A stretch of 15,293 bases of DNA from Rhodopirellula sp. (GTDB lineage: Bacteria > Planctomycetota > Planctomycetia > Pirellulales > Pirellulaceae), in contig PAXU01000006.1 of NCBI GenBank assembly GCA_002714565.1, positions 97,900-113,192 of the forward strand, read 5' to 3'. The notes under the pieces are model-generated. The model had not been told where the DNA came from, ran no database searches, and saw nothing but the letters and a program-made list of their open reading frames with translations. Positions 3,842 to 12,005 of this stretch are shown here, piece by piece (the first letter of the stretch is position 1; each line of letters starts with the position of its first letter). Made by a program: the position numbers and the translations under genes.

Positions 3842-4729
3842 ATGAAACGAATAAAGCAGTTTGCCGCGTTACTTGCAGTGGCAATCATGATCACAGGATG
3901 TGGCGGCAGTGGTGACAATGGATCCACCAAAGGCGAAGATGAATCGGCAATCAGAATTGAAGGTTCTGATACGATGGTCAATCTGGCTCAAGCCTGGGCA
4001 GAACGCTATCAAGAATCCAATTCCAGCGTTGAAATCGAAGTATCCGGCGGAGGCTCGGGTGTTGGAATCAAAAGTCTGATCAGCGGTCAGGCTGACATGG
4101 CAAACGCTAGCCGCAAAATGAAGGACTCGGAAAAGACACGAGCCAAAGAGGAACTTGGAAAAGACCCGGTGGAGTTAATCGTGGGACGCGATGCACTTGC
4201 TGTTTATGTGCATAAAGACAATCCCATCGATGAAATTTCATTGGCTCAACTCAAGGCAATCTATGCCGATGGCGGAAACATCACTAACTGGAGTGATATT
4301 GGGATCACAATGCCTGAAGGCACTGCTGATGAAATCACCCGTGTTAGCCGCCAAAACAATTCCGGAACCTATGCTTACTTCCGCGAATCGGTCTTGGACG
4401 AAGAGGACTTTAAACTTGGCTCCATCGACCAGAGTGGTTCAAAAGATGTTGTCGCACTGGTAAGCACAACGCTCAACTCGATCGGCTATAGCGGAATGGG
4501 CTATGCAACACCCGACGTAAAAATGCTTAAAATCAAATCGAGTGATGACGGAGATGCTGTTGAGCCTAAGGCAGAAAACGTTATAAACAACACTTACCCA
4601 ATTGCTCGACCATTGCATATTTATACGCTGGGCGAACCTGCTGGCAACGTAAAGGAATACCTTGACTGGATCATGTCCGATGCAGGTCAGGCAGTTGTTT
4701 CAGAGATGGGTTATGTACCAGTCAAATAA
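3842..4729 (+). CDS. pstS: Phosphate ABC transporter substrate-binding lipoprotein PstS
   Basis: A 295-residue high-affinity phosphate-binding protein that delivers phosphate to PstC/PstA. The N-terminus is a lipoprotein signal peptide with lipobox ITGC, so Cys20 would be lipidated and the protein anchored to a membrane. Phosphate-pocket motifs are present: EGSDTM (40-45), SGGGSG (68-73), ADMANASRKM (84-93) and SRQNNSGTYAYF (169-180). The C-terminal closing segment (NNTYPIARPLHIY) is also typical. The start ATG 3842 is preceded at a good distance by AGGA (3831-3834). The length is normal for the family. It is the first gene of the pst block, with pstC 57 nt downstream. A Pho-box-like repeat about 130 nt upstream suggests induction under phosphate limitation. 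Confidence 0.96.
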   Translation: MKRIKQFAALLAVAIMITGCGGSGDNGSTKGEDESAIRIEGSDTMVNLAQAWAERYQESNSSVEIEVSGGGSGVGIKSLISGQADMANASRKMKDSEKTRAKEELGKDPVELIVGRDALAVYVHKDNPIDEISLAQLKAIYADGGNITNWSDIGITMPEGTADEITRVSRQNNSGTYAYFRESVLDEEDFKLGSIDQSGSKDVVALVSTTLNSIGYSGMGYATPDVKMLKIKSSDDGDAVEPKAENVINNTYPIARPLHIYTLGEPAGNVKEYLDWIMSDAGQAVVSEMGYVPVK

Positions 4730-4786
4730 CGATTGGTTCGAACAGTGCTGACAAACTGCTGATCCTCATTTAATTGGCGGAGTGCG

Positions 4787-5782
4787 ATGGCGGGAACATC
4801 CACGCAACCACCTACAATTACCGATGATGGTAGTAGGCCACCTGGCGAAAGCCAGCGTGGTTTCCGCTATTTCTCCAACATTCTAGTAGACAAGTTTGAA
4901 TGGTTTTTTGTTAGTTTCATCTACGTGTGTGGGTGGAGCGCTATTCTGTTTGTCCTGGCAATTTTCTTCTTTGTGTTTATCGAAGGATTGCCGGCGATCA
5001 CAGGAAGTGGCGAAGGTCAACTTGATTTAGTCGACTTCTTCACCAATGAGAAGTGGATACCTGAATCTGCTAAGAAGCCGCAATTCGGCATCTTTGCGAT
5101 GCTCATGGGTACGTTGTCCGTCACGGTTCTTTCGATGCTAATTGCCGTTCCATTAGGGCTCGGTGCCGCAATATACGTGTCAGAGTTTGCAAGCAACAAG
5201 ACACGTGAAATACTTAAAGTGTTGATTGAATTGCTCGCTGCTATTCCATCGGTCGTTTGGGGGTTTGTGGGATATATGGTTCTCGGACCCATTCTGCTCG
5301 ATACTTTTGACTCGGCCGTTGTTGGTATTAATCTCTTAAACGGCGGAATCATTCTCGCACTGATGAGCGTTCCGGTCATTGTTTCCATGTCCGAAGATGC
5401 ACTGCGTGCCGTTCCTGACTCCTACCGTGAAGCCGCAATGGCACTTGGAGCGAACAGGACGGAAATGGTCTTCAAGGTTCTGTTTCCAGCAGCCAAGCAT
5501 GGGCTGTTGGCCGCCGTATTGCTTGGAGTCGGACGAGCGATTGGAGAAACGATGGCGGTGCTGATGTGTACCGGCCATGCAGTGCAAATTCCAGAGGGAT
5601 TGCTCGATCCGGTACGTACTCTCACGGCAACCATTGCAGCGGAACTCGGTGAAACGGCACCCGGTGATATGCACTATCAGGTGCTATTCGTTATTGGCAT
5701 TGTTTTATTCACCTTTGCATTCCTGATCAACATCATTGCTGATGTCATCGTGAAGGGGATAAGGATGGAAAAGCATGGCTAA
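4787..5782 (+). CDS. pstC: Phosphate ABC transporter permease PstC
   Basis: A 331-residue inner-membrane permease that forms the phosphate channel with PstA. A hydrophilic N-terminal tail of about 35 residues precedes the first membrane helix (about 42-66); further helices lie at about 105-130, 146-170, 186-202, 238-260 and 300-322. The coupling (EAA) loop is intact: YREAAMALGA with Glu215-Ala-Ala, followed by the family motif GRAIGETMAVLM (249-260). The start ATG 4787 has GGCGGAG just upstream (4776-4782). The 3' end overlaps the pstA start by 8 nt (5775-5782), implying translational coupling. The retained EAA glutamate contrasts with its loss in PstA. Confidence 0.96.
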   Translation: MAGTSTQPPTITDDGSRPPGESQRGFRYFSNILVDKFEWFFVSFIYVCGWSAILFVLAIFFFVFIEGLPAITGSGEGQLDLVDFFTNEKWIPESAKKPQFGIFAMLMGTLSVTVLSMLIAVPLGLGAAIYVSEFASNKTREILKVLIELLAAIPSVVWGFVGYMVLGPILLDTFDSAVVGINLLNGGIILALMSVPVIVSMSEDALRAVPDSYREAAMALGANRTEMVFKVLFPAAKHGLLAAVLLGVGRAIGETMAVLMCTGHAVQIPEGLLDPVRTLTATIAAELGETAPGDMHYQVLFVIGIVLFTFAFLINIIADVIVKGIRMEKHG

Positions 5783-6887
5783 TATAAATATTTCACCGCC
5801 TAGCAATAAGAATCCATTTGCAACAACGCAACAGGAAGTAAACCGCCAACGCTTTGAATTAGTCACCAAAGTCGTTTTCTTCCTGATGGCAATGGCACTG
5901 GTAATTCCGATGCTCTGGATCATGTGGGATCTCGCGTATCGAGCTTTTGATGTCTTGTCTTATACCTACATGGTTATTGGCATCGGATGTGTTGGATTGT
6001 TGATTCCGTACTTCCTCATCGAAGCCGCGAAGCGCAGTGAGGACAATCGCAAACTCCTAATGGGTATAGCCATTGCGATTCTCGCCGGCGTCTCCATTTG
6101 GTTAGTCTCAATAACCATCTTCAATATGGACAACGGCGGATTTGACTTCCTCACGCTGAATCCCAAGAAACGGATGACAGCAGGTGGTATTTGGGCACCT
6201 CTGATCGGTACATTCCTCCTTGTCCTTCTTTCACTTGTCATTTCCGCTCCTATCGGAATTCTGGCGGGCGTTTATCTCAGCGAGTTCGCTCAGGAGAATT
6301 GGTTTACTCGAGTCATCAATCTTGCGGTTGTGAATCTTGCTGGAGTACCAAGCATCGTGCATGGTTTGTTTGGTGTCGGCGCCTTTGTTTACTTTATGGA
6401 CATGGGCAGATCGTTGCTGGCTGCTTCTTCCACTGTTGCTGTGATGACACTTCCTGTAATCATCACAAGTACCAAGGAAGCATTGTCCTCTGTACCTCAG
6501 TCATTTCGTGCTGCATGCTGGAACATGGGAGCAACGAAATGGCAAACTATCCGGACAATCGTCCTACCAAACTCCATCAGCGGAATTCTCACCGGGGTGA
6601 TCCTTCAGGTTGCTCGGGCTGCAGGTGAAACAGCGCCGATCCTATTTACCGGTGCCCTGTTCTACAAGAAAGTCGCTGACTCAGGATTCGAATCATTTGC
6701 ACCGTACGGCCTCGATGATCGATTCATGGCCCTGTCATATCATTTGTTTACCGTGGCTACTCAAGTTCAGGACGTATCGGAGTCATTCCAGTTCGGAACG
6801 GCTGTTGTACTCATAGGTTTGGTATTAATGGTAAACAGCGTGTCAATTGCTTTCCGCATCTACCTTCGCGCACGCAAGAGGTGGTAA
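5775..6887 (+). CDS. pstA: Phosphate ABC transporter permease PstA with an extra N-terminal membrane hairpin
   Basis: The second permease subunit of the Pst system. At 370 residues it is longer than usual (about 280-300). The canonical core starts near residue 138 (GGIWAPLIGTFLLVLLSLV) and includes NLAGVPSIVHGLFG (187-200), the coupling loop SFRAACWNMGA (243-253) and RAAGETAPILFTGALF (281-296). Residue 246 of the coupling loop is Ala where the EAA consensus has Glu. After the first membrane helix (about 31-52) there are two extra hydrophobic segments (about 67-83 and 94-115) joined by a charged loop, so the subunit probably has eight rather than six helices. It overlaps pstC by 8 nt. Its stop TAA (6885-6887) lies next to the pstB1 ribosome site. 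Confidence 0.94.
   Translation: MANINISPPSNKNPFATTQQEVNRQRFELVTKVVFFLMAMALVIPMLWIMWDLAYRAFDVLSYTYMVIGIGCVGLLIPYFLIEAAKRSEDNRKLLMGIAIAILAGVSIWLVSITIFNMDNGGFDFLTLNPKKRMTAGGIWAPLIGTFLLVLLSLVISAPIGILAGVYLSEFAQENWFTRVINLAVVNLAGVPSIVHGLFGVGAFVYFMDMGRSLLAASSTVAVMTLPVIITSTKEALSSVPQSFRAACWNMGATKWQTIRTIVLPNSISGILTGVILQVARAAGETAPILFTGALFYKKVADSGFESFAPYGLDDRFMALSYHLFTVATQVQDVSESFQFGTAVVLIGLVLMVNSVSIAFRIYLRARKRW
6877..6884 (+). promoter_or_regulatory. Ribosome binding site deciding the pstB1 start
   Basis: AGAGGTGG, inside the last codons of pstA, is a strong Shine-Dalgarno match. It lies about 6 nt before GTG 6890 but overlaps the alternative GTG at 6881, so it favours 6890 as the pstB1 start. Confidence 0.7.
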
Positions 6888-6889
6888 CC

Positions 6890-7714
6890 GTGAATCAAAA
6901 CTCCTCCACACAATTAACCGAACACGATAAGCCGAAATCAGCTGTAGAAAACGCAAGTGACGTTCATATATCGTTTGACAATGTCAGTATTTATTACGGT
7001 AAGGATGTAGCTCTCCAACCGTTTAGTATGCAGATAAAGCGAAACGAGATATTCGGAATCATTGGTCCAGCCAATGCCGGAAAAACATCGTTGTTAAAGT
7101 CCATTAACCGAACATTAGACTTCATCCCATCCGCGAAAGTCTACGGTTCAGTCAAGGTAAATGGACAAGATGTCAACGCAATCAGAGGTCGGAGGGTACA
7201 TCAACTCAGACGACATATCGGTATGGTTTTCCCTTTGCCTGTGGGATTGCCGTTATCGGTTTATGAAAACGTCGCTTATGCCCCGCGACGGGCTGGGATG
7301 CACGACCGGCGTGTCCTGGATGAATTGGTTGAAAAATGCCTGCGACAAGCCATGCTTTGGGATGAAGTTAAAGATCGGCTGAACATGCTTGGCACCAAGC
7401 TGTCCGGTGGACAACAACAACGTTTGACCATCGCCAGAGCACTGTCACATCAACCGGAAATCCTGTGCCTAGATGAATTCTCGATCGCAATTGACCCGGT
7501 CACCACAATGAAAATCGAAGATGTGCTATTGGAGCTTAAACAAGAGCTAACTATTGTTCTGGTTACCAACCTCGTTCAACAGGCGCGACGACTGGCTGAC
7601 CATACAGCATTCTTCAATAAATCAGAATTAATTGAGTACGGTTCAACTGAGAAGATATTCTCCGAGCCGGAAGAGCAAATCACCTTGGATTATGTAATGG
7701 GGGATTTTGGTTAA
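6890..7714 (+). CDS. pstB: PstB1: phosphate ABC transporter ATPase with degenerate Q- and H-loops
   Basis: A PstB-family ATP-binding subunit of 274 residues from GTG 6890 (277 from GTG 6881; 6890 is preferred for its Shine-Dalgarno site). Present: A-loop Tyr (YYG), Walker A GPANAGKT (59-66), signature LSGGQQQR (171-178), Walker B with Asp195-Glu196 (LCLDEF, where most PstB proteins have DEP) and a D-loop (SIAID). Altered: the Q-loop reads MVFPLP, so Pro115 replaces the glutamine of MVFQKP; the H-loop reads VTNLVQQARR, so Asn227 replaces the switch histidine of VTHNMQQA. The codons (CCT at 7232, AAC in 7561-7570) are clear in the DNA and the frame is intact. It can therefore supply a good signature to a partner, but its own nucleotide site should hydrolyse poorly. 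The next gene begins immediately after its stop, which fits a PstB1-PstB2 heterodimer. Confidence 0.93.
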   Translation: MNQNSSTQLTEHDKPKSAVENASDVHISFDNVSIYYGKDVALQPFSMQIKRNEIFGIIGPANAGKTSLLKSINRTLDFIPSAKVYGSVKVNGQDVNAIRGRRVHQLRRHIGMVFPLPVGLPLSVYENVAYAPRRAGMHDRRVLDELVEKCLRQAMLWDEVKDRLNMLGTKLSGGQQQRLTIARALSHQPEILCLDEFSIAIDPVTTMKIEDVLLELKQELTIVLVTNLVQQARRLADHTAFFNKSELIEYGSTEKIFSEPEEQITLDYVMGDFG

Positions 7715-8551
7715 ATGGCCGTTGATCTCATGGAATCAAAAACACAAAAACCTGAAGTCGAGACACTGGTTACTGAACCGCAGACTCAGGAAGTGAGTAT
7801 CACAACTCGAGATCTGAGCTTGTGGTATGGAGATTTTCAAGCACTTGAAAACGTGACACTCAATATCCGTAAGGGAATCATTACGAGTCTTATTGGACCG
7901 AGCGGTTGCGGCAAAACAACGTTGCTGCGGTGTTTCAATCGCATCAATGAGCGATATGGAAACGTAACGACAACTGGTGAAATTCGCATCCTCGACAAGA
8001 ACATTCTCGACCCTGATGTTTCCACTCGCCAGTTACGAAAATCGGTTGGCATGGTTTTTCAACGACCCAATCCTCTCCCGATTTCCATCTACGATAACGT
8101 GCTGTTTGGCAGCAATATTCATGCAGCGCATAAAGGCATAAGCAGGTCCGTACGAGATCAAATTGTCGAAGAAGCATTAGTCGAAGTCGATCTTTGGGAT
8201 TCGGTAAAAGACCGCCTTAAACAGCGAGCCACCTGGCTGACACTGGAACAACAACAAAAGCTCTGTATCGCGAGACTGTTGCCGCTTAAACCTGAAATCA
8301 TCCTAATGGATGAACCGTGCTCGGCATTAGACGCGGAAGGTACGGAGAAGATCGAGAATCTCATCGAGAGACTGCGCGAAGAATTCACGGTCGTCATCGT
8401 TACTCACAATATGGCACAAGCTCGCCGAGCATCCGATGAATGCGTTTTCATGCTGCTTGGGGAAATCATTGAACATCGACCAACGGCTGATCTGTTCATG
8501 ACCCCGGAAAATGAAAAAACTGAAATGTATATTCAAGGGCGATACGGATAG
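7715..8551 (+). CDS. pstB: PstB2: phosphate ABC transporter ATPase with a degenerate signature motif
   Basis: The second PstB-family ATPase, 278 residues. Its ATG 7715 directly follows the pstB1 stop (7712-7714), with GGGGG (7700-7704 region) upstream; an in-frame ATG at 7730 is an alternative. Present: Walker A GPSGCGKT (61-68), Q-loop VFQRPNP with Gln116, Walker B ILMDEP with Asp199-Glu200, D-loop SALD and H-loop VTHNM with His231. Altered: the signature reads LTLEQQQKL (175-183) where PstB normally has LSGGQQQRL, so Ser and both Gly are lost and Gln is kept. The nucleotide pocket on this subunit is complete, but it cannot offer a normal signature to a partner. The defect is the mirror image of that in PstB1. 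phoU follows after 58 nt. Confidence 0.93.
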   Translation: MAVDLMESKTQKPEVETLVTEPQTQEVSITTRDLSLWYGDFQALENVTLNIRKGIITSLIGPSGCGKTTLLRCFNRINERYGNVTTTGEIRILDKNILDPDVSTRQLRKSVGMVFQRPNPLPISIYDNVLFGSNIHAAHKGISRSVRDQIVEEALVEVDLWDSVKDRLKQRATWLTLEQQQKLCIARLLPLKPEIILMDEPCSALDAEGTEKIENLIERLREEFTVVIVTHNMAQARRASDECVFMLLGEIIEHRPTADLFMTPENEKTEMYIQGRYG

Positions 8552-8609
8552 GATTTCATTAGCGTCGTTCTTGCCCCGGTTTCGTCGACCATAAATTGGC
8601 AATAATCAA

Positions 8610-9275
8610 ATGAAGAAATTTGACCAGGAATTAACTGACTTACAGCACCGCCTAGTACAGATGGCCGAACGCGCCGAGTCCATGCTCGCGCTCGCCGTTG
8701 ACTCTCTCGATTCAATTGATGATAAAACGCGGGAGAATATCCATGAGCAGGAACAAGAGCTCGACCAGATGCAGATGGATGTCGATCAGGAAGTGGTAAG
8801 AATGCTCACCGTATTTACACCGGTTGCTTCGGACCTGCGTTATTTGCTAACAACGTCTCATATTGCAACCAGCCTCGAACGCATGGGCGATCAGGCCACC
8901 AACATCATCAATTCTCTGGAAATGATGCACTTAAAGAGCGTGGCATCACCCCAGGACCGCTTGTTACAAATGGGAAAGATGACCCGCGAAATCGTGCACG
9001 ATGCGGTTACAGCTTATGTAAATAAAGATGCTGACCTCGCTGAATCAACACTTGGTCATGATGAACTAATCGATTCTCTGAATGATCAAATCATGAAAGA
9101 ACTTCTAAACGATGAAGTTGTTCGCGAGATGATCTCCGGCCCAACTGATATCGCTGGACGATTGTCGCAGATCCTCATCGGGCGCTCGCTCGAACGTATT
9201 GGTGATCAGGCGTGCAATGTGTGCGAAGAAGTGATCTACATGGTCAAAGGCGATGATGTGCGACACGGTCATTAA
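8610..9275 (+). CDS. phoU: Phosphate signalling protein PhoU
   Basis: A 221-residue, all-helical cytoplasmic protein with the two-repeat PhoU fold. Both repeats carry the metal-cluster motif: ERMGDQATNI (90-99) and ERIGDQACNV (195-204). PhoU proteins restrain PhoR signalling when phosphate is plentiful and modulate the Pst transporter through PstB and the PhoR PAS domain. The length and both motifs are normal. ATG 8610 has no clear Shine-Dalgarno site. It lies 58 nt after pstB2 and 61 nt before the response regulator, consistent with one transcription unit. Which of the two unlike PstB subunits it contacts is an open question. Confidence 0.95.
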   Translation: MKKFDQELTDLQHRLVQMAERAESMLALAVDSLDSIDDKTRENIHEQEQELDQMQMDVDQEVVRMLTVFTPVASDLRYLLTTSHIATSLERMGDQATNIINSLEMMHLKSVASPQDRLLQMGKMTREIVHDAVTAYVNKDADLAESTLGHDELIDSLNDQIMKELLNDEVVREMISGPTDIAGRLSQILIGRSLERIGDQACNVCEEVIYMVKGDDVRHGH

Positions 9276-9336: not shown

Positions 9337-10020
9337 ATGGCTGGCGAGACAATCTTAATCATCGAAGATGAACCAACGCTGATTGACGTCTTAACATATA
9401 ACCTCGAGTCACAAGGTTATATTGTTCACTCACGGGATAATGGCATTGATGGATTAGCTGCCGTTAAGCAGTTACTCCCCGACCTTGTTCTTCTGGATCT
9501 GATGTTACCTGGACTTGATGGATTGGCGATTTGTAGGAATCTGAAGTCGTCTCAGGTGACTCAGGATATTCCTATCCTGATGCTCACAGCTAAGAGTGAA
9601 GAGATTGATGAATTAGTCGGGTTCCAAACGGGGGCCGATGACTATGTTTCAAAGCCTTTTAAAGTGGTTTTGTTGTTAGCCCGTATCAAGTCACTGCTAC
9701 GCAGAACGTTAGCATCGAGTGATGAAAAAGACATATTGAAATACCGTGGCATAGTTCTTGACCGCCTTCAATACAAAGCTCTCAATGACGGTGCCACATT
9801 TCAACTGACACCAACCGAATTCGAGCTCCTATGGCAACTCATGGTCCATCCGGGACGAGCATATTCTCGATATGATCTCATGGAAAGTCTGATGGGGGAT
9901 AACACTTTAGTGCTAGAGCGCACCATTGACGTTCACATCCGTGCGCTACGTAAAAAGCTCGGTGATAAATCAGCTCTGATCGAGACTGTTCGTGGCGTCG
10001 GCTATCGTGTGCACGCTTAG
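9337..10020 (+). CDS. phoB: PhoB/PhoP-type response regulator (OmpR family)
   Basis: A 227-residue response regulator. The N-terminal receiver domain (about 4-120) has acidic residues Glu10/Asp11, phospho-acceptor Asp54 (LVLLDLMLPG), Thr84 and Lys106 (YVSKPF). The C-terminal OmpR-type winged-helix DNA-binding domain (about 132-226) has LTPTEFELLWQL, a recognition segment ERTIDVHIRALRKKLG and the wing RGVGYRV. It probably activates pst genes when phosphorylated by the PhoR homologue encoded opposite; assignment to the Pho system rests mainly on this neighbourhood. The start ATG 9337 follows a weak GAG. Its stop TAG (10018-10020) overlaps the stop of the convergent phoR gene, unlike the usual co-directional phoBR operon. 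Confidence 0.9.
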   Translation: MAGETILIIEDEPTLIDVLTYNLESQGYIVHSRDNGIDGLAAVKQLLPDLVLLDLMLPGLDGLAICRNLKSSQVTQDIPILMLTAKSEEIDELVGFQTGADDYVSKPFKVVLLLARIKSLLRRTLASSDEKDILKYRGIVLDRLQYKALNDGATFQLTPTEFELLWQLMVHPGRAYSRYDLMESLMGDNTLVLERTIDVHIRALRKKLGDKSALIETVRGVGYRVHA

Positions 10021-11780
10021 CATTGTGGAAGGCGTACGATAAAAGAAGTGCCTTGGCCAGCGGTACTTTCAACCTCTACAGATCCACCAAATGCACCGGC
10101 CAAGTGCTTGACGATGGCTAGACCCAATCCAGTTCCACCTAGTTCTCGCGACCTGGCCTTGTCGACGCGGTAAAATCGCTCGAATATCCTCTCAATGTGA
10201 ATCTGACTAATTCCGATCCCGCTGTCTCTTACAACAATGTGCACATCATCCCCATCGACATCCAATTCAACATCAACACTACCACCGGCAGGCGTATATT
10301 TGATTGCATTATCGATCAGGTTATCCATGATCTGCCGCATGCCTTCTGGATCGACGTGTGCGGACACATCTTGTGTACGTAGCATAAGACCCAATTCAAC
10401 CTCTCGTTTTTGCGCACGTGACTTGTGGTATTCAATACATTCCTGAAGGAAGCTTACCAAATTCAGATCCACAAATTCGAATGGATGGTTTCCAGCCTCC
10501 ACCCTGGCTAGGCTAAGAAGATCCTGAATGAGTGCGCTCAATCGTTCAGCTTGCTCCACAATACGCTGTACAAATCCCTCGTTGTTCTGTTCATCATCCA
10601 ATGCGCCGGATAATAGAGTCTCAGAGTAAGCTTGAATCGATGCTAGCGGAGTCTTCAACTCATGTGAAACGTTCGCAACGAATTCACGCCGCATGTTTTC
10701 GAGCCTTCGCAAATCAGTAATATCATGCAACACAAGAATCACACCGCCATCCGAGGTTCCTGGCACAGCTGATACCGTTGTTGATAGATACCTTTGCGGT
10801 GGCCCCAGCAACTCAATCTCTACTCTCTGTGTTTCACCCGAGCTGAGTACATCGACGATGGTTGTTTCAATGATTTGATTTCGTATCACTTCCCAGACGG
10901 GCCTACCAACATCGTCCGGCACACTGAATTCAAACATTTTGCATGCCGCGTCATTCGCAAAACGAATGCGCTCATCAACGTCGATCGAAACGACACCTTC
11001 ATCCATTCCTTCTAGGGTTGCAAGCAATTGGCCTCTGTTATCTTCCAGCATCGCCATTCGCGATGACAATTCCCGGCTGAGCTCATTCAGTGTTCGACCG
11101 AGTTCGTCAATTTCATTTCCGCCGGTTAGATTAACCGTCTCTCCCAACTGACCCATCGTCAACTCTCTTGTTTCATTGACAAGAGAAGTGAGCGGACGTG
11201 TCATCCAGGCCACTAGGATCATACAGATTAATACTCCACCTGCGGTGACAATCCCAATGAGACGAGCGATGGAATACTGTATCCTTGACACTTGATCATC
11301 GATTTCCGAAGTCGGTAGTGCTACTCTCACCGTTCCAACTGGATTGGACTGTTGTCCAATACGGACAGCAAAGTACCGCATATCCATATCAAGCGTATCA
11401 CTATGCCGCTCAGACTTCCCTTCACCACTTTTGATTGCTGACAGAATCTCCATGCGTCGATCATGTGGTTCCATGGTTTTAGGGTCGCGATGTGAGTCTG
11501 CAACCACTAAGCCATCCAACTCCACTATGGTGATACGGGCATCTGTACGATTGGAAACCTCTTCAACGAGTGGTTCGATTTCGTCTTCTAACCGCGCACT
11601 TATGTATTCGCTAACCTGTGGCCTGAGAGCCATAGCGATGCTCTTTAATCGTAGATCAAGTTGATCGATCAATTGCTGCCGCTGCAACATAGACATCATC
11701 GAGTGCGCAATCACACCGCTGATCACAATCAGCAATACGAACAACACAAATGGTCGCCAGAATAATCGCGATGTCCACAT
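10017..11780 (-). CDS. phoR: PhoR-type membrane sensor histidine kinase
   Basis: A 587-residue sensor kinase, the likely partner of the PhoB homologue. Order of parts: membrane helix 1 (about 9-29); an extracytoplasmic region (about 30-170), much larger than in E. coli PhoR and more like Gram-positive PhoR; membrane helix 2 (about 173-193); HAMP (about 194-246); PAS (about 250-358); dimerisation/phosphoacceptor domain with His373 (NVSHELKTPLAS); ATPase domain with the N-box (DNLIDNAIKYTP, Asn491), G1 box (DSGIGIS, 519-525), F box (FERFYRVD) and G2 box (GGTGLGLAIVKHL). The PAS domain is the expected PhoU contact. The start codon is ATG (complement of 11778-11780), with an AGAGAGGA about 10 nt upstream. 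It is transcribed toward phoB and the two stop codons overlap (shared bases 10017-10020), so it must have its own promoter in the region 11781-12005. Confidence 0.92.
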   Translation of the reverse strand: MWTSRLFWRPFVLFVLLIVISGVIAHSMMSMLQRQQLIDQLDLRLKSIAMALRPQVSEYISARLEDEIEPLVEEVSNRTDARITIVELDGLVVADSHRDPKTMEPHDRRMEILSAIKSGEGKSERHSDTLDMDMRYFAVRIGQQSNPVGTVRVALPTSEIDDQVSRIQYSIARLIGIVTAGGVLICMILVAWMTRPLTSLVNETRELTMGQLGETVNLTGGNEIDELGRTLNELSRELSSRMAMLEDNRGQLLATLEGMDEGVVSIDVDERIRFANDAACKMFEFSVPDDVGRPVWEVIRNQIIETTIVDVLSSGETQRVEIELLGPPQRYLSTTVSAVPGTSDGGVILVLHDITDLRRLENMRREFVANVSHELKTPLASIQAYSETLLSGALDDEQNNEGFVQRIVEQAERLSALIQDLLSLARVEAGNHPFEFVDLNLVSFLQECIEYHKSRAQKREVELGLMLRTQDVSAHVDPEGMRQIMDNLIDNAIKYTPAGGSVDVELDVDGDDVHIVVRDSGIGISQIHIERIFERFYRVDKARSRELGGTGLGLAIVKHLAGAFGGSVEVESTAGQGTSFIVRLPQC

Positions 11781-12005
11781 TTAGACGAAATCCTCTCTCG
11801 TGCATGCGCCGCAAAGTCGGTGAATACATGCAGCTTATCGCAGCTTGAACATCTATTGTATCTGCAATTGCAAGACGTGCAGCAATACAATCCGCAGTAG
11901 CAGTGCATCTATTTCATCCAGAACATTAACTGTATATTGCTGCTTTGCCCCTCCTTTTATGCCTTCCTTTGACGTGTATGCCAAAGCGTTGCATACCATC
12001 TTTGC
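11781..12005. other. Divergent intergenic region between phoR and the MFS gene
   Basis: This 225-bp region must contain the promoters of both flanking, divergently transcribed genes. I see no convincing -35/-10 pair and no TTAACA-type Pho repeat. It contains a short direct repeat GCAGCTT (11830-11836 and 11840-11846) and a long imperfect hairpin (11855-11891). No small gene is supported. Confidence 0.6.
11855..11891. repeat. Long imperfect inverted repeat in the phoR/MFS intergenic region
   Basis: ATTGTAT (11855-11861) pairs with ATACAAT (11885-11891), and the adjoining CTGCA (11862-11866) pairs with TGCAG (11878-11882). A 2-nt bulge (CA, 11883-11884) interrupts one arm and the loop is 11 nt. 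The total is 12 base pairs. It lies between divergent genes and could be a regulator's operator or an RNA structure in either leader. No T-run follows. Confidence 0.5.

Follow-up and report, generated by a model that had tools for sequence, protein, structure and literature searches.

The window analyzed here, a stretch of 15,293 nt from Rhodopirellula sp., contains a phosphate-uptake locus with the gene order pstS-pstC-pstA-pstB1-pstB2-phoU-phoB and a convergent gene for a phoR-like kinase. The genes are listed in Table 1 together with the ATP-site motifs of the two PstB subunits, which belong to a form termed strong here; a mild form is described below. The products of pstS, pstC, and pstA scored above their family cut-offs. 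TIGR00972 was the top family for both PstB1 and PstB2 over the whole protein, and both missed its curated cut-off of 343.2 bits (283.1 and 318.6 bits, respectively). By context the pair belongs with PstB, as pstS, pstC, pstA, and phoU are encoded alongside it, and neither subunit has all ABC motifs intact. Because both subunits fall under the TIGR00972 cut-off, we named them a PstB variant and not a standard PstB. The GTG at 6890 is preceded by AGAGGTGG and lies directly after the stop codon of pstA (6885-6887); starting instead at GTG 6881 raises every PstB1 residue number by 3. At the far end of the locus, the last four bases of phoB (10017-10020) are shared with the convergent phoR-like gene.

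Table 1. Genes of the pst-pho locus and ATP-site motifs of its two PstB subunits, in window positions.
Feature	Position	Strand	Remarks
pstS, phosphate-binding protein	3842..4729	+	TIGR02136, over cut-off
pstC permease	4787..5782	+	EAA loop REAAMALGA, motif kept
pstA permease	5775..6887	+	coupling (EAA) loop FRAACWNMGA, strong-form sequence including Trp
pstB1 (strong form)	6890..7714	+	LSGGQ intact; longest frame from GTG 6881
PstB1 Walker A	7064-7087		GPANAGKT; Asn in place of one Gly
PstB1 Q-loop	7226-7246		VFPLPVG; Pro replaces Gln
PstB1 signature	7400-7414		LSGGQ, intact
PstB1 Walker B	7466-7480		CLDEF
PstB1 H-loop	7562-7573		VTNL; Asn replaces His
pstB2 (strong form)	7715..8551	+	pocket motifs intact; LTLEQ replaces LSGGQ
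PstB2 Walker A	7895-7918		GPSGCGKT
PstB2 Q-loop	8054-8071		VFQRPN
PstB2 signature	8237-8251		LTLEQ for LSGGQ
PstB2 Walker B	8303-8317		LMDEP
PstB2 H-loop	8399-8410		VTHN
phoU	8610..9275	+	TIGR02135, over cut-off
phoB-like response regulator	9337..10020	+	TIGR02154 237 bits, below cut-off 296
phoR/PnpS-like sensor histidine kinase	10017..11780	-	NF046044 393 bits, slightly below cut-off 400

The region is part of a syntenic block of ~78 kb shared with a genome of the same genus (G001), mostly at 92-100% identity per 500 bases. Identity was only 75-85% across the pst-phoU genes (window positions about 4000-9000) and 64-75% per 250 bases across the N-terminal sensor half of phoR (about 10750-11900); phoB, which lies between these two divergent segments, was 99-100% identical. 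The divergence of importer and sensor looks like a linked allelic exchange.

The motifs of the two subunits agreed with the initial annotation in nearly every respect. It had described PstB1 as keeping LSGGQ, with Pro115 in the Q-loop and Asn227 in the H-loop, and PstB2 as keeping Walker A, Gln116, Asp199-Glu200, and His231, with LTLEQ in place of LSGGQ; all of these residues are present, those of PstB1 when numbered from GTG 6890 (Pro118 and Asn230 from GTG 6881). Its list of PstB1 defects was correct for the Q- and H-loops and incomplete for Walker A, where the change of Gly to Asn had been missed. In PstB1, the Lys of Walker A, the Asp-Glu of Walker B, and the Tyr of the A-loop are all retained, which points to a crippled pocket and not an erased one. 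An ABC ATP site combines the Walker A and B motifs and the A-, Q-, and H-loops of one nucleotide-binding domain (NBD) with the signature of the partner (PMC7756269). Read motif by motif, the complementary split that had been proposed was borne out: the PstB2 pocket with the PstB1 signature is canonical, and the other site collects all of the defects. With pocket defects on one NBD and a signature defect on its partner, the pair shows the motif pattern of an ABC transporter that has one canonical and one degenerate ATP site. Single-chain models predicted intact folds for both subunits (pLDDT of 86.2 for PstB1 and 88.7 for PstB2), and a PDB fold comparison with the PstB1 model returned E. coli PstB as the best match (9k3x_C; target TM 0.95). 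Relative to the nearest relative, both genes are under purifying selection (rough dN/dS of 0.04 and 0.02, with dS >1), values on which a decaying duplicate was rejected.

A genome scan for PstB1 relatives showed that 136 genomes encoded one, and 80 loci were kept. The first set of sequences comprised 83 distinct B1, 80 distinct B2, and 24 canonical PstB proteins, sorted on overall score without regard to motifs. In the B1 proteins so sorted, the Q-loop had Pro in 82/82 readable sequences, the H-loop had Asn in 81/81, and the fourth residue of Walker A was other than Gly in 81 of 83. The Gly-Gly of the signature was replaced in all 80 readable B2 proteins (Leu-Glu in 79, Leu-Asp in one). The recurrence of the same residues in 82/82 B1 and 80/80 B2 readable relatives excludes both chance and an assembly or sequencing error. 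A full set was then compiled from all retrieved loci, with duplicates removed and pieces of <200 residues dropped; of its 275 distinct frames, five were low-scoring ABC proteins belonging to other families and were taken out, which left 270 PstB proteins. These fell into three states: 116 had a defective pocket with LSGGQ intact, 114 had a defective signature with an intact pocket, and 40 were canonical, with every scored motif intact. Both the Q-loop Gln and the H-loop His were lost in all 116 pocket-defective proteins, and the Gly-Gly was lost in all 114 signature-defective ones (H-loop readable in 112), whose fourth signature residue was Glu in 113 and Asp in one. None of the 270 combined both kinds of defect or lay outside the three states. 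As the relatives share ancestors, these counts measure conservation and not independent events.

By class, the 270 proteins comprised 102 strong B1, 14 mild B1, 101 strong B2, 13 mild B2, and the 40 canonical PstBs. All 102 strong B1 proteins had the Lys of Walker A and the Asp and Glu of Walker B, and 98 had the Tyr of the A-loop. Mild B1 proteins had Ala or Ser at the Q-loop position and TNN in the H-loop, with LSGGQ intact, and the mild B2 signatures were LSAEQ, LSPEQ, LSLEQ, LTPEQ, LPPEQ, or LSGEA, mostly of the type LS[A/P/L]EQ. The best 120 of 7,993 scored relatives of mild B1 all had Asn in the H-loop and an [LI]SGGQ signature, with Ala (117) or Asp (3) in the Q-loop. Mild B1 proteins (loci L142-L146, L149-L162, and L172) had the A-loop Tyr in only 4/14 and kept the Walker A Gly in 10/14; the strong form was the opposite, with that Gly kept in only 9/102. 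Mild and strong B1 may thus represent two routes toward a weak pocket.

Two scans covered the 294 genomes of a phylum sample, the genome of the window included. The strong form occurred in 23 (matches of at least 349 bits, which were then typed) and the mild form in at least 14 others, the latter an undercount, as mild-form and canonical PstB proteins overlap in score and reading covered the 30 best loci. Some PstB was found at E 1e-62 in 230 of the 294. Among near relatives, 7/39 had the strong form, three of the seven with a second PstB-like match, which indicates a patchy distribution inside one family. Strong-form loci were also found under titles naming Verrucomicrobiota, Myxococcota, Acidobacteriota, and others, although these are titles of metagenome-assembled genomes (MAGs) and single entries may mislabel taxa. 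A local anomaly is excluded by the 23 genomes within the phylum together with the loci titled as other phyla. Thus, the asymmetric PstB pair, which had been read as an oddity of one locus, is a conserved class common to many bacteria. Since the members checked lie below the standard annotation cut-off, surveys of pstB that use it miss them.

In all 112 loci with both genes, B1 and B2 were on the same strand with B1 first, and their conserved domains were separated by no more than 144 bases in 111 of them and by 597 bases in one (L080). Grades were matched throughout, strong with strong in 99 loci and mild with mild in 13, with no crossed pairs, although the grades are partly defined by the motifs themselves. 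Distances among B1 proteins correlated with those among B2 proteins at r 0.91 over 110 loci; the best of 500 permutations reached 0.21. Six loci showed a single gene of the two. Five of them are at a contig edge, and in the sixth (L089) an insertion splits the B1 match into pieces that fall below the 200-residue filter. Neither a fused double-NBD PstB nor, at scores >40 bits, a fusion of PstA, PstC, or PhoU to PstB was found among the retrieved frames. Tandem relatives with both paralogs intact, which the initial annotation had named as evidence against its proposal, numbered 0/112, in a search seeded with PstB1 relatives that may miss intact pairs; no retrieved canonical locus contained two canonical PstBs. 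The adjacency of B1 and B2 and their correlated divergence support a heterodimer.

An unrooted tree was built from a diverse selection of 85 among the 270 sequences, with the motif columns removed. One branch (100/99) had every B1 on the same side, and a second branch (99/95) did so for every B2. Because each half groups together, separate origins of the mild and strong grades were rejected. The mild sequences did not form a group of their own, with two changes each in B1 and B2. These features are consistent with a single ancient duplication and subsequent stepwise loss. The branches to a distant ABC outgroup were too long for rooting, and as the root was not fixed, we infer the order from mild to strong.

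The permeases also differ between forms. The PstA coupling loop of strong-form loci has the sequence REACWN[M/L]GA or a close variant of it, and its Trp was present in 83/83 distinct loops (obtained from 100 of 103 loci). The one Trp-bearing loop first grouped as canonical (L048) was reassigned because its operon is of the strong form and its pair had been removed as a duplicate. Canonical PstA had Tyr, Leu, Phe, or Ala at the same position in 34/34 and Trp in none, and the mild form had an ordinary PstA loop (six loops, from 6/14 loci). PstC kept the EAA Glu in 78/78 distinct strong-form loops. Its position matching the PstA Trp had no fixed residue: it was non-aromatic in all 78, as it is in the window, versus Tyr or Phe in 6/6 canonical loops. 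The Q-loop contacts the permease loops (PMC7756269); together with the fixed PstA Trp and the Q-loop Pro of PstB1, this hints that PstA may dock on PstB1 and PstC on PstB2. The changes in PstC at the matching position and the ordinary PstA loop of the mild form weaken this suggestion.

Taken as a whole, the observations make it probable that the PstC-PstA phosphate channel is powered by a 1:1 heterodimer of the ATPase subunits PstB1 and PstB2, in which one ATP site hydrolyses and the other is degenerate; this heterodimer is probably obligate. The PstB2 pocket and the PstB1 LSGGQ would make up a canonical site that hydrolyses ATP. At the other site, formed by the PstB1 pocket and the PstB2 LTLEQ, retention of the Walker A Lys, the Walker B Asp/Glu, and the A-loop Tyr makes ATP binding plausible with hydrolysis impaired, such that ATP is probably still bound with slow or no turnover. 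Many degenerate ABC sites lack the Walker B Glu; as PstB1 has it intact, some hydrolysis at this site is possible. The degenerate side could act as a hinge or clamp while the canonical side fires, and PstA, through its strong-form Trp loop, may sit on PstB1, with PstC on PstB2. We infer the heterodimer, the identity of the hydrolysing site, the retention of ATP, and the docking order from sequence comparisons. A more elaborate scheme can be drawn, in which a widespread class runs a one-ATP-per-stroke cycle, the PstB1 site is a clamp that remains ATP-loaded, PstA is wired to it via a dedicated coupling loop, the permanent asymmetry allows flux to be reported to PhoU-PhoR in a way that differs from symmetric PstSCAB, and the two genes evolved stepwise from mild to strong and were transferred together from phylum to phylum; in its entirety we offer this scheme tentatively and regard it as doubtful.

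It could also be that PstB2 (or PstB1) partners a separate canonical PstB, with its tandem mate serving as a regulatory subunit or fading as a duplicate. A third complete pstB, again something that the initial annotation had said would speak against its proposal, was not found in the genome of the window (about 89% complete), where the next match scored 151 bits as compared with 318 and 283 for the pair. Exactly two PstB-like matches were present in 14 of the 23 strong-pair genomes of the phylum sample and in 26 of a further 36 genomes with the pair, which we selected among the 80 loci for their spread over phyla and checked whole; 29 of these 36 were without any match above the TIGR00972 cut-off. 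In genomes where the pair is the only PstB found, mostly incomplete MAGs, it probably does the work. The remaining 9/23 and 10/36 genomes had more PstB-like matches, the type of which was read for few, so that some hosts may have a backup. In one of them (G345), the extra copies resemble a second tandem pair in position and score. In loci L048 and L051, a canonical pstB (bases 1-613) lies upstream of the asymmetric pst genes, with about 4 kb from its end to these genes, which indicates that canonical and lopsided systems can be neighbors. These additional copies, and the unequal roles of the tandem PstBs of Enterococcus faecalis (PMC12096839), are in keeping with a separate partner. Against it are the genomes with no third PstB, purifying selection on both genes, and defects that are fixed and not drifting, and we consider such an arrangement improbable.

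That the pair serves chiefly as a regulator, a PhoU-PhoR signaling transceptor that has largely lost transport, would suit its position between pstSCA and phoU-phoB, with phoR adjoining, and the way in which importer genes and the sensor half of phoR diverge jointly from G001. Yet pstS, pstC, and pstA are present and score above their family cut-offs, in many genomes no PstB other than the pair was found, and one of the composite sites is fully canonical, all of which leaves this reading very improbable. Two encoded subunits could instead each form homodimers used under different conditions, and on present data such homodimers are physically possible. A PstB2 homodimer, however, would be without LSGGQ at both sites, and a PstB1 homodimer would be without the Q-loop Gln and the H-loop His at both; the strict tandem pairing with matched grades is a further argument against them, and we give this alternative next to no weight.

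PstSCAB is a textbook ABC importer, usually drawn with two identical PstB subunits, and the role of degenerate ATP sites has been studied mainly in exporters. The split-motif PstB class thus represents a natural importer for tests of a degenerate site, with separate subunits and milder evolutionary forms. A search of open-access titles and abstract openings, largely outside of which fall subscription papers and preprints, returned no description of a PstB pair with complementary motif loss. The pair resembles canonical E. coli PstB (PDB 9k3x/9k3s; TIGR00972) in its best family, its pstS-C-A-B-phoU operon, and the predicted fold of PstB1. It differs in that the 40 canonical PstBs read were all motif-intact, whereas here there are two genes, both below the cut-off, with complementary loss.

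Adjacent pstB genes within a pst locus are also found in E. faecalis, where both PstB1 and PstB2 have all of the four motifs examined, a set without the Q-loop (PMC12096839); here each subunit lacks a different set. According to the authors of that report, no study had yet been published on how tandem pstB paralogs compare in their contributions (PMC12096839). Measured against E. faecalis, the window pair departs from a Firmicute-type tandem PstB with two motif-intact paralogs. Bacillus subtilis has two PstB subunits as well, PstBA and PstBB, which were modelled as one complex (PMC11466899). Two other ABC importers of B. subtilis, RbsA and NupO, have one degenerate ATP site by sequence (PMC11466899), but these are type II importers whose two NBDs are joined in a single polypeptide, as opposed to the separate subunits found here. 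For E. coli DppABCDF, an alignment of the NBDs with consensus and degenerate sites is mentioned in the literature (PMC12136057).

The same division, with pocket defects on one NBD and a signature defect on the other, is found in Pdr5, TAP, ABCC1, and TM287/288 (PMC7756269). The Pdr5/TAP group consists of exporters, whereas the pair described here belongs to a PstC/PstA importer with separate NBD subunits; in place of the fused TMD-NBD architecture of exporters, the window has separate pstC, pstA, and pstB genes together with pstS. In contrast to the asymmetric exporters, PstB1 also still has Lys in Walker A and Glu in Walker B. Yeast Pdr5 offers the closest parallel: its degenerate site combines a Tyr in the H-loop with the partner signature LNVEQ, in which Glu occupies the position that it has in LTLEQ, and making all four motifs canonical abrogated both ATPase activity and transport (PMC7756269). 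The PstB1-PstB2 pair is probably a case of Pdr5-like asymmetry in a phosphate importer.
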